Of a stretch of 45,518 bases of DNA, positions 9,272-21,185 are shown one piece after another (position 1 is the stretch's first letter; every line of letters begins with the position of its first letter). The DNA comes from Parcubacteria group bacterium (lineage in GTDB: Bacteria > Patescibacteriota > Minisyncoccia > JACPHC01), in assembly GCA_016188775.1 (NCBI GenBank), contig JACPHC010000001.1, forward strand, positions 1 through 45,518. Direction: 5' to 3'. Both the position numbers and the translations under genes were made by a program. The notes under the pieces were generated by a model. That model was given only the letters and a program-made list of their open reading frames with translations. It did not search any database and was not told where the DNA came from.

Positions 9272-10255
9272 ATGTACGATATCATCACAATCGGGACCGC
9301 CACTCGCGACGTTTTTTTAAAAAGCCCGGCTTTTAAAATTTTGCGCGATCCAAGTTTTGCCACGGGGCAGGCCGAATGCTTCGCTCTGGGTTCAAAAATT
9401 GAGGCGCCGGAAATTTATTTCACCACCGGCGGCGGAGCGACTAACGCGGCCGTCACTTTTTCCCGCCAAGGTTTAAAAACCGCCTGTCTAACGAAAGTCG
9501 GCAACGACCCTAACGGAAAAGAGATTATTCAAGAATTAAAATCCGAAGGCGTGAGTGTTTTCGTAAAACAGGAAAAAAGGGGAGGCACGGCTTACTCGGT
9601 GATCTTAATGGCGCCGGGCGGGGAACGAACCATTCTTGTTCATCGAGGCGTATCTGAAAAAATTTCTCCAAGCGACTTTTCTTTAAATTCCATTAAAACC
9701 CGCTGGGTTTATTTAGCGCCTTTGGGCGGAAAAAATGTCCGTCTTTTTAAGCCATTGGTTGATTATTTCTATAAAAATAAAATCAAAATCGCGGTTAATC
9801 CGTCCGGAGCGCAAATAAAAATGGGAGTTAAAAAACTGATTCCAATTTTAAAAAAAATCGATGTTTTTATTTTAAATCAAGAAGAGGCCGGTTATTTGAC
9901 TGGCGTTGATTTCAAAAAGGAACAAAAAATTTTTAAAAAACTTGATGATTTAATTACTCCCGGCATCGCCGTGATGACCAAAGGCAGAGACGGGGTTAGC
10001 GTTTCCGATGGCAAACATATTTGGCAAGCGGGCATTTTAAAAGAAAAAAAACTGGTTGACCGAACCGGCGCCGGCGACGCTTTTGGCTCCGGTTTTGTCG
10101 CCAGCCTGATTAAAAAAGATAACATTGAAGACGCGATTCAATTGGGTTCAGCTAATGCCACTTCCAAATTGGAGAGTATCGGCGCCAAGAACGGACTTTT
10201 GAAAAAAAACGAGTCAATTTATAAATGGGGAAAGCTTAAAATTAAAAAAATATGA
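9272..10255 (+). CDS. PfkB/ribokinase-family carbohydrate kinase
   Basis: TGGGATNAAVTFSRQGL, DRTGAGDAFGSGFVA signature. Confidence 0.9.
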   Translation: MYDIITIGTATRDVFLKSPAFKILRDPSFATGQAECFALGSKIEAPEIYFTTGGGATNAAVTFSRQGLKTACLTKVGNDPNGKEIIQELKSEGVSVFVKQEKRGGTAYSVILMAPGGERTILVHRGVSEKISPSDFSLNSIKTRWVYLAPLGGKNVRLFKPLVDYFYKNKIKIAVNPSGAQIKMGVKKLIPILKKIDVFILNQEEAGYLTGVDFKKEQKIFKKLDDLITPGIAVMTKGRDGVSVSDGKHIWQAGILKEKKLVDRTGAGDAFGSGFVASLIKKDNIEDAIQLGSANATSKLESIGAKNGLLKKNESIYKWGKLKIKKI

Positions 10256-10282
10256 CCCTTCGGGTCATCACCCGTGGGGTGA
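10254..10282. repeat. double-hairpin repeat family D: GACCCTTCGGGTC-AT-CACCCGTGGGGTG
   Basis: same sequence class as 18695-18723 and 20758-20786. Confidence 0.8.
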
Positions 10283-18432: not shown

Positions 18433-18488
18433 ATGATAAGCTTGCTATCTTAGTTGAGCGGGGCAACTGTTTTTCCAATCCCATCAGA

Positions 18489-18522
18489 GCCGACCTAGCT
18501 CAATGGCAGAGCAACGGTTTTG
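18489..18522 (+). pseudogene. tRNA-Thr-like 5' fragment (acceptor strand, D arm, start of anticodon arm)
   Basis: GCCGACC TA GCTCAATGGCAGAGC A ACGGTTTTG. Confidence 0.65.
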
Positions 18523-18539
18523 CCCGCCCCGTTAGAAAT

Positions 18540-18612
18540 GCCGAGGTAGCTCAGCTGGTAGAGCAACTGTTTTGTAAACAGTAGGTCGTGGGTTCGAATC
18601 CCTCCCTCGGCT
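18540..18612 (+). tRNA. tRNA-Thr(UGU)
   Basis: GCCGAGG/CCTCGGC acceptor, ACTGT-TTTGTAA-ACAGT anticodon arm, TTCGAAT T-loop; one T-T mismatch in the T-stem. Confidence 0.85.
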
Positions 18613-18632
18613 CATCGGCATTTCTAACTGGG

Positions 18633-18667
18633 TAAATAGGTTCCGAGTTCGAGTCTCGGGTTCGGCT
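18633..18667 (+). pseudogene. tRNA 3' fragment (T arm and acceptor strand) likely matching the 18489 fragment
   Basis: AAATAGGTT CCGAG-TTCGAGT-CTCGG GTTCGGC T. Confidence 0.6.
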
Positions 18668-18676
18668 CTGACGGGA

Positions 18677-18741
18677 TAAATAGGTCCTCGGTTTGACCCT
18701 TCGGGTCATCACCCGCAGGGTGACAAATCCGAGAGGCGGCT
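18677..18741 (+). pseudogene. second tRNA-like 3' fragment with family D double hairpin inside the T-loop
   Basis: AAATAGGTC CTCGG-TTTGA[CCCTTCGGGTCATCACCCGCAGGGTGA]CAAAT-CCGAG AGGCGGC T. Confidence 0.55.
18695..18723. repeat. double-hairpin repeat family D
   Basis: GACCCTTCGGGTCATCACCCGCAGGGTGA. Confidence 0.85.
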
Positions 18742-18759
18742 TTGATAAAAAATATCTAT

Positions 18760-18843
18760 CCGGCGGTGACAGAGTGGCCAAATGTACCTGACTGTAAATC
18801 AGGCGGGTTAATCCCTACGTAGGTTCGAATCCTACCCGCCGGA
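18760..18843 (+). tRNA. tRNA-Tyr(GUA), class II, with C1:G72
   Basis: CCGGCGG/CCGCCGG acceptor then A73, T8, anticodon loop CTGTAAA, long variable arm CGGGTTAATCCCTAC, T arm GTAGG-TTCGAAT-CCTAC. Confidence 0.92.
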
Positions 18844-18866
18844 CAATAAAATTTATCCATAATGTT

Positions 18867-19532
18867 ATGTTTAATATGACGAATTTTAAAAAATATCTCG
18901 CCGAATTAGTCGGAACTTTTACTCTTGTTTTAATTGGCGCCGGAACAGTTATCGCTAATTTCGCCAGCAGGGGCAAAGTCGGTCTTTTGGGCATTGCTTT
19001 GGCTTTTGGTTTTGTCGTTATGGTTATGGTTTATGTTTTTGGGCGGATTTCCGGAGCTCATTTGAATCCGGCTGTCACTATCGCTCTTTTTTTGAAAAAG
19101 AAAATAAATTTTCAAGACTCCGTTTTGTACGTTATTTTTCAGAATCTAGGCGCGGTTTTAGCCGGACTTGTTTTGCTTTTTAGTTTTGGTTCTTCTGATT
19201 TAGTCGCTCAAGGAGTGACGGTTCTGGGCGAGAATATTTCGCTTTTTCAAGGCGTCGCGATTGAATCATTTTTAACTTTTTTTCTAATGATGGCCATTTT
19301 GTCGTTTGTTGATCAGGAATCGGAAATAATTATCGGAGCGGCTGTGATTGGCGTGACCATTTCAATGGATATTCTTTTTGGCGGTGTTTTAACCGGAGCT
19401 TCCATGAATCCGGCCCGGACTTTTGGTCCGGCGCTTGTGGCCGGAGTATGGAATAATCATTGGATTTATTGGGTTGGTCCGATTCTAGGCGCGGCAGTCG
19501 CCGTCTGTATTTCAAAAATTTGGAAGAAATGA
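18867..19532 (+). CDS. aquaporin / MIP-family channel
   Basis: HLNPAVTIALFL and GASMNPARTFGPAL NPA motifs with six predicted TM segments. Confidence 0.92.
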   Translation: MFNMTNFKKYLAELVGTFTLVLIGAGTVIANFASRGKVGLLGIALAFGFVVMVMVYVFGRISGAHLNPAVTIALFLKKKINFQDSVLYVIFQNLGAVLAGLVLLFSFGSSDLVAQGVTVLGENISLFQGVAIESFLTFFLMMAILSFVDQESEIIIGAAVIGVTISMDILFGGVLTGASMNPARTFGPALVAGVWNNHWIYWVGPILGAAVAVCISKIWKK

Positions 19533-19547
19533 GACAATAAAATTTTA

Positions 19548-20648
19548 ATGAACATAAAAGAAAAATTAGAGCTTATCAGTCGAAATACCGAAGAAGTTTT
19601 GACAAAAGAAGATTTAGAAAATCTTCTTTTGTCAAAATCAACGCCTCGTCATTATATCGGCTTTGAAATTTCCGGAAAAATTCATTTAGGCACCGGACTG
19701 GTCGCGCTTTCTAAAGTTAAAGATTTCGCGGATGCCGGCCTAGAATGCGTTATTTTTTTGGCCGACTGGCACACCTGGATTAACGATAAATTAGGCGGCG
19801 ATTTCGCGGCGATTAAAGAAATCGCGGTAAATTATTTTAAAGAAGGAATAAAAACATCTTTCAAGATTTTAGGAGGCGACCCCAAAAAACTTCATTTCAT
19901 TTTGGGTTCGGACCTTTATCATCGCAATGATAAATATCTTGGACTTATTCTGGGGATAGCCAAACATTCGACTCTGGCAAGAATTAAACGGAGTATCACT
20001 ATTTTGGGCCGAAAAGAAGGCAGCGAAGTTGATTTTGCCAAATTGATTTATCCGGTAATGCAAGTGGCCGATATTTTCGCCTTGAAGGCGGATATCGCTC
20101 ATGCCGGCCTTGATCAACGAAAAGCTCATGTTATCGCGCGAGCCGTTGCTCCAAAAATCGGATATCTAGAACCTGTTGTTATTCATCACAGCCTTCTTAT
20201 GGGGCTTACCGCTCCCGCGAAATGGCCAATTACGGATTTGGAAAAAAAAGAATTAAAATTAGAACTTAAAATGAGCAAATCCAAACCTGATTCGGCGATT
20301 TTTATTCATGATTCAGAAGAGGAAATAAAAAGAAAAATTAAAAAATCTTTTTGTCCGGAAAAAGAAATCGCGTATAATCCGATTCTGGATATGGTTGAAA
20401 AGATTATTTTCAGATTAAATCGGCGAGATTTTGAAATTAAACGGCTCGCAAAATTTGGCGGCAATATCGTTTATAACTCGTTTTCCGATTTGCAAAATGA
20501 TTATAAAACAGGTAGACTTCATCCTGAAGATTTGAAAATCGCCGTATCGTTGAGGCTGATTCAAATTTTGAAGCCCGCGATTGATCATTTTAAAAAGACC
20601 GAACCGGCTAAAATGCTTGCCAGGCTTGAAGAATTAATGGAAAAATAA
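19548..20648 (+). CDS. tyrS: tyrosyl-tRNA synthetase, archaeal/eukaryotic-type
   Basis: HYIGFEISGKIHLGTGL, FLADWHTWIN, IYPVMQVADIFALKADIAHAGLDQRKAHVIAR, KMSKSKPDSAIFIHDS, KIKKSFCPEKEIAYNPILDM, KFGGNIVYNSFSDL. Confidence 0.88.
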   Translation: MNIKEKLELISRNTEEVLTKEDLENLLLSKSTPRHYIGFEISGKIHLGTGLVALSKVKDFADAGLECVIFLADWHTWINDKLGGDFAAIKEIAVNYFKEGIKTSFKILGGDPKKLHFILGSDLYHRNDKYLGLILGIAKHSTLARIKRSITILGRKEGSEVDFAKLIYPVMQVADIFALKADIAHAGLDQRKAHVIARAVAPKIGYLEPVVIHHSLLMGLTAPAKWPITDLEKKELKLELKMSKSKPDSAIFIHDSEEEIKRKIKKSFCPEKEIAYNPILDMVEKIIFRLNRRDFEIKRLAKFGGNIVYNSFSDLQNDYKTGRLHPEDLKIAVSLRLIQILKPAIDHFKKTEPAKMLARLEELMEK

Positions 20649-20723: not shown

Positions 20724-20757
20724 CCGGCAATGAATGAAAAAATGATGTCGTCGGTTT

Positions 20758-20786
20758 GACCCTTCGGGTCATCACCCGCAGGGCGA
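20758..20786. repeat. double-hairpin repeat family D inside another tRNA-like T-arm remnant
   Basis: TCGGTTT[GACCCTTCGGGTCATCACCCGCAGGGCGA]CAAATCCGCGCCTGGGCT. Confidence 0.8.
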
Positions 20787-20839
20787 CAAATCCGCGCCTG
20801 GGCTCATAAATAAATTTAAATATTATAATTAAGGTATGG

Positions 20840-21114: not shown

Positions 21115-21185
21115 GGGACCATAGTTCAATGGCAGAATAGCGGTCTCCAAAACCGTTGATCGAGGTTCAAATCCTCGTGGTCCCG
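21115..21185 (+). tRNA. tRNA-Trp(CCA), G73 discriminator
   Basis: GGGACCA/TGGTCCC acceptor, CTCCAAA anticodon loop, CGAGG-TTCAAAT-CCTCG T arm. Confidence 0.9.

Follow-up and report, generated by a model that had tools for sequence, protein, structure and literature searches.

The window analyzed here, which comprises the first 45,518 nucleotides of a 125-kb contig from a Parcubacteria group bacterium, carries genes for a tRNA-Tyr(GUA) (18760 to 18843) and for a 366-residue archaeal-type tyrosyl-tRNA synthetase, TyrRS (19548 to 20648). Both genes lie on the + strand and are separated by 704 nt, in agreement with an earlier note on this DNA that placed the tRNA about 700 nt upstream. The space between them is occupied by a MIP/aquaporin channel gene (18867 to 19532, + strand; NCBIfam TIGR00861, 173.8 bits), a neighbor outside the Tyr system, and a tRNA-Trp(CCA) with the bacterial identity base G73 (21115 to 21185, + strand; ARAGORN and Rfam) lies downstream of the synthetase. 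The rules of tRNA identity were long held to bar the transfer of TyrRS between domains.

The tRNA-Tyr is a class II molecule found independently by ARAGORN and by Rfam (RF00005, 58.8 bits), with a score of 82.1 bits for the tRNA-Tyr model R1. The gene is 84 nt long through A73, and the CCA is not encoded. The acceptor stem, CCGGCGG/CCGCCGG, with U8 in register, pairs C1 (18760) with G72 (18842), which is followed by the discriminator A73 (18843). The anticodon GTA (GUA) is located at 18794 to 18796 by ARAGORN, and a long variable arm (V-arm) of the bacterial class II type, recognized by its sequence, its length, and the nearest tRNA bodies, spans 18804 to 18818. Thus, the two features that led the earlier note to call this tRNA a hybrid, C1:G72 in place of the bacterial G1:C72 and a retained bacterial variable arm, are both borne out, the first by the sequence, ARAGORN, and Rfam, and the second by the sequence and length of the arm and the kinship of the tRNA body.

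When the acceptor stem is set aside, the closest relatives of this body are bacterial-type tRNA-Tyr molecules, several of which come from the organism's own class (genomes G088, G161, G172, and G116). The acceptor stem of one of these classmates (G088), GCGGCGG/CCGCCGC, is the stem of the window tRNA-Tyr except that the 1:72 pair is inverted. Because the body resembles the G1:C72 tRNAs of its own class, the resident tRNA has probably been retuned rather than imported, and the simplest reading of these sequences is that the retuning of the bacterial tRNA-Tyr probably took a single base-pair inversion. It is very unlikely that the tRNA-Tyr instead came from archaea together with TyrRS and gained its variable arm afterwards. 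The two genes do lie close together, and they are adjacent in other genomes too (for example, at loci L137 and L125), but the arm and the body match those of same-class bacterial-type tRNA-Tyr, and archaeal tRNA-Tyr has no V-arm (PMC5370408).

The synthetase is archaeal in type throughout. It scores 419.6 bits with NCBIfam NF006330 (PRK08560; cut-off 220), covering model positions 1 to 336 of 342, and barely passes the bacterial tyrS model TIGR00234 (117.6 versus a cut-off of 113.8). PF00579 is its sole domain; there is neither an S4 domain nor a SYY C-terminal domain, and the same search detected both (PF01479 and PF22421) in a bacterial TyrS used as a control (L314). The HIGH-type motif (IHLG) is found at 19680 to 19691, the GLDQRKAH motif at 20106 to 20129, and the KMSKS motif at 20268 to 20282. 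The top PDB match is 2cyc (412.9 bits), the TyrRS of Pyrococcus horikoshii; human cytoplasmic TyrRS and Thermus TyrRS score 142.4 and 35.5, respectively. The earlier note had described an archaeal/eukaryotic layout lacking the bacterial S4-like domain. All of the motifs that it quoted are present and the domain is indeed missing, but only the archaeal part of the description, in a DPANN/Thermococcus-like form, stands; the PDB scores and the archaeal neighbors in the phylogeny speak against the eukaryotic part.

Within the GLDQRKAH motif, R191 (codon 20118 to 20120) aligns with Arg174 of M. jannaschii TyrRS, the residue by which that enzyme reads C1:G72. This arginine is invariant in 93/93 archaeal-type TyrRS proteins, and the position holds T or L in all six bacterial-type TyrRS proteins aligned. 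The window protein has in common with the P. horikoshii (2cyc) and M. jannaschii (1j1u/1u7d) enzymes its family, its motifs, and the equivalents of Arg174, His283, and Asp286. The archaeal systems differ in the partner: archaeal tRNA-Tyr is class I, whereas the tRNA in the window is class II with a V-arm. The bacterial TyrS/TyrZ system, with its G1:C72 class II tRNA-Tyr, shows the converse. It shares the tRNA body and V-arm with the window, and differs in the S4-like C-terminal domain, which the window TyrRS lacks, in the orientation of the 1:72 pair, and in having DQ(T/L)FN where the window protein has DQRK. Early in its coding sequence, the TyrRS gene also contains an inverted repeat (19597 to 19637) whose 19-bp arms, TTTTGACAAAAGAAGATTT/AAATCTTCTTTTGTCAAAA, match perfectly around a 3-nt loop; the repeat encodes part of LTKEDLENLLLSK.

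In an ML tree of 76 TyrRS proteins, eukaryotic sequences not included, the window TyrRS falls within an archaeal clade (support 100/99) that unites DPANN archaea and Thermococcus with Chloroflexota and several CPR lineages; the bacterial TyrS proteins make up a separate side of the tree (100/100). The phylogenetic check proposed in the earlier note thus shows no grouping with bacterial TyrS. Within the archaeal clade, the window protein stands alone on a branch with 0.62 changes per column, in an open region and apart from the other CPR groups; of its relatives with names, DPANN archaea are the nearest. The archaeal-type TyrRS proteins of CPR bacteria are scattered over several separate places in the tree, a pattern that fits the repeated transfers argued for by Mukai et al. 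(PMC5370408). No relative of the window TyrRS that might indicate a mobile-element carrier was found in viral contigs, phages, or plasmids at the limits used. Two other genomes, G239 (L111/L327/L328) and G250 (L122/L325), each encode two different archaeal-type TyrRS proteins, which lie in separate parts of the tree and share about 39% and 53-58% identity with the window protein.

The host genome is 767 kb in 10 contigs and is 100% complete with 0.26% contamination; nearly all of its phylum mates have small genomes. It encodes two PF00579 proteins, the window TyrRS and a bacterial-type TrpRS (contig C8), and among the 47 different tRNAs called by ARAGORN in its fetched tRNA stretches, exactly one is a tRNA-Tyr. 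The genome-wide search suggested in the earlier note finds neither a second TyrRS nor a second tRNA-Tyr in a complete genome. A TyrZ-like accessory role would need a housekeeping TyrS alongside, and this genome has only the one TyrRS. Since tRNA-Trp carries the bacterial G73, Trp identity is not archaeal; with TrpRS and tRNA-Trp both bacterial, the change in Tyr identity is not shared by Trp. The GC and GC3 of the TyrRS gene resemble those of the adjoining genes. It is extremely improbable that the locus is an assembly chimera or archaeal contamination, in which the TyrRS of a co-occurring DPANN archaeon has been mis-joined into a bacterial contig. The assembly is a draft, and among named relatives those nearest to the window TyrRS are from DPANN archaea, as such an error would have it, but TyrRS is flanked on either side by bacterial genes in a 125-kb contig of even composition, and no other TyrRS is present in the genome. 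Moreover, the bacterial-bodied tRNA-Tyr has the matching C1:G72, which would not arise through contamination, and 11 families within the phylum show the same pairing of archaeal TyrRS with C1:G72.

This recurrence emerges from an even sampling of the phylum, 192 genomes in all. TyrRS exceeds the archaeal-type cut-off in 24 of them, representing the 11 families, and passes the cut-off of the bacterial model in 165. Detection of tRNA-Tyr relied on a covariance model with 7 seeds; three of these, taken from E. coli, B. subtilis, and Thermus, served for detection only. In every archaeal-type genome with a readable tRNA-Tyr, the molecule has C1:G72 and A73 (24/24: 20/20 in the first set and four more, G187, G081, G136, and G065, after a recheck of genomes that seemed to lack it). 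The archaeal-type count includes one genome, G079, whose fragmented TyrRS is under the cut-off; the tRNA-Tyr of another, G030, was not found on recheck. Among the bacterial-type genomes, C1:G72 occurs in 0/97, with G1:C72 in 96 and G1:U72 in one. An apparent T1:A72 called by ARAGORN in five genomes was rejected as a one-base register shift. For the first 117 tRNA-Tyr molecules, Fisher's p is 6e-23, a value that overstates independence owing to shared ancestry. Despite that ancestry, the 11 families and a contrast within the organism's own class still stand behind the link: only the window genome among 55 class members has an archaeal-type TyrRS, and G1:C72 is present in all nine classmates for which a tRNA-Tyr was read.

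TyrRS type therefore predicts tRNA-Tyr identity without exception in 121 genomes of the phylum, and chance is excluded because the 1:72 pair tracks TyrRS type in every genome read. A sequencing error, which the earlier note had raised, would have to strike positions 1 and 72 together, and C1:G72 recurs in every archaeal-type genome read. The idea of coincidental drift, with the archaeal-type TyrRS indifferent to 1:72 and C1:G72 neutral, has a precedent in human mitochondrial TyrRS, which charges both 1:72 pairs equally (reviewed in PMC9976931), but is scarcely credible given the perfect association in these genomes and an Arg174 equivalent that is invariant in archaeal-type TyrRS only. The variable arm behaves differently from the 1:72 pair. 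It is present in all 97 bacterial-type tRNA-Tyr molecules and, among the 24 archaeal-type ones, is kept in 10 and lost in 14. Confinement of V-arm loss to archaeal-type genomes is expected if the archaeal-type enzyme needs no V-arm.

Together, the gene content, phylogeny, and covariation indicate that the locus is very probably the bacterium's only tyrosine-charging system, in which an archaeal TyrRS has replaced TyrS and the resident tRNA-Tyr has been retuned to the C1:G72 that the new enzyme would read. In the direction and order of steps that we infer, the ancestral bacterial TyrS would have given way to a TyrRS acquired from archaea, with a DPANN/Thermococcus-like source, and the resident tRNA-Tyr would have retained both its body and its long variable arm, with G1:C72 at its first pair turned round into C1:G72. 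The new enzyme, presumed to be catalytically active, would then charge the retuned tRNA by reading C1:G72, through a predicted contact of Arg191 (the counterpart of M. jannaschii Arg174), together with A73 and the GUA anticodon. This mode of charging is proposed by analogy with established work on archaeal TyrRS, for which the Tyr identity set is A73, C1-G72, G34, U35, and A36 (PMC9976931). In bacteria, the S4-like domain reads the V-arm (PMC5370408); because the window TyrRS lacks such a domain, its tRNA's variable arm would go unused.

Archaeal-identity Tyr systems, including V-arm tRNA-Tyr with C1:G72, have been described in CPR bacteria (Mukai, Reynolds, Crnkovic and Soll 2017, Life 7:8, PMC5370408). 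Many of these cases keep the V-arm, indicating a bacterial ancestry of the tRNA, and a DPANN source is probable for their TyrRS (PMC5370408). This is the work on archaeal tRNA-Tyr identities in bacteria to which the earlier note alluded, and it reports the same combination. The window shares with the published systems an archaeal-type TyrRS without S4, a C1-G72 tRNA-Tyr with a bacterial V-arm, and a small genome. The host, judged by its genome size and its relatives, probably belongs to the CPR, and a DPANN source may likewise apply to the window TyrRS, whose clade includes DPANN archaea and Thermococcus. It differs in that its 54 classmates all lack an archaeal-type TyrRS and in the separate branch of its TyrRS, and it has no feature outside the published kind. 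The window is, then, one more case of a phenomenon in print since 2017, and is less surprising for it. As a locus, it is a clean case, since enzyme and identity pair have both switched and the tRNA body is still bacterial, and the rule of 24/24 versus 0/97 turns an anecdote into a testable regularity. Pairs of archaeal TyrRS and C1:G72 tRNA are also candidates for orthogonal systems in which the tRNA is of class II; the window pair is plausibly orthogonal to bacterial TyrRS.

Newer to the specialist are two sets of systems that go beyond Mukai 2017. The first is in the Chloroflexota, including Dormibacteria, whose archaeal-type TyrRS proteins form a 20-row clade in the TyrRS tree (support 98/91; the Chloroflexota/Dormibacterota loci are L114, L115, L123, L124, L126-L136, L138, L139, L141, L142, L144, L146, L157, and others). 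Archaeal-type TyrRS is present in 6/201 sampled Chloroflexota genomes, and a TIGR00234 search found no bacterial TyrS in the genomes that carry it. The tRNA-Tyr read from more than 20 of these Chloroflexota genomes has, in all cases, C1:G72 and A73 and no V-arm. These systems are not mentioned in Mukai 2017 (PMC5370408), and a literature search for archaeal-type TyrRS in Chloroflexi gave nothing relevant.

The second is a WWE3 bacterium (Bin_101; G265) with two complete, identity-matched Tyr systems on one 864-kb contig; among the papers searched, none was found on a genome with both. Its archaeal system (L137, 3491 to 7134) consists of an archaeal TyrRS and a V-arm tRNA-Tyr with C1:G72, 1.6 kb apart. 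They are part of a cluster whose genes all point the same way and encode, in turn, an MBL hydrolase (MBL fold), the tRNA-Tyr, a HisC-like aminotransferase, an aminoacyl-tRNA editing-domain protein (PF04073), and the TyrRS. Its bacterial system, a TyrS with an S4 domain (L314) and a V-arm tRNA-Tyr with G1:C72 (L313), sits elsewhere on the contig, away from the archaeal cluster. A TIGR00234 search of 26 family members found no second, archaeal-type match, and no homologues of the cluster proteins were found beside the other archaeal TyrRS loci examined. The archaeal system of this genome may represent a still-living intermediate stage of the switch, or else a side system with a dedicated role; in the latter vein, the cassette might act in a tRNA-dependent task of its own or on a modified tyrosine. 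A tentative and rather doubtful extension is that archaeal-identity systems arrive in bacteria as a cassette of TyrRS and tRNA that at first exists beside the native system, with the window as an end point at which the native TyrS would have been lost and the native tRNA retuned.

Several other tRNA features of the host genome were noted. No tRNA-Asn was called in its fetched tRNA stretches, and two odd, low-scoring calls were made: a 73-nt 'tRNA-Ser(UGA)' without a V-arm, just upstream of tRNA-Thr(CGU) (L048, 391 to 463; G000:C3:102990-103062), and a second 'tRNA-Arg(GCG)' (L047, 19 to 92; G000:C3:5203). In the window, positions 18440 to 18746 hold a Russian-doll arrangement of tRNAs in nested inverted repeats, which folds much better than its shuffles (z -5.6). 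At the core, a tRNA-Thr(UGU) (18540 to 18612) is enclosed by inverted repeats that occupy the anticodon region of one degenerate tRNA, whose halves are at about 18490 to 18525 and 18634 to 18667. This tRNA is in turn enclosed by inverted repeats, located in the anticodon region of a second degenerate tRNA, whose 3' half is at 18676 to 18742. A repeat, GACCCTTCGGGTCATCACCCGCAGGG(T/C)GA, has four copies in the genome, at 18684 to 18731, 20747 to 20794, and 10254 to 10279 of the window and near 1490 to 1548 of locus L331. Each of the three tRNA-Thr genes (UGU, GGU, and CGU) is followed directly downstream by a degenerate 3' half that resembles tRNA-Thr, and three copies lie in the T-loops of these halves; the fourth copy is intergenic.
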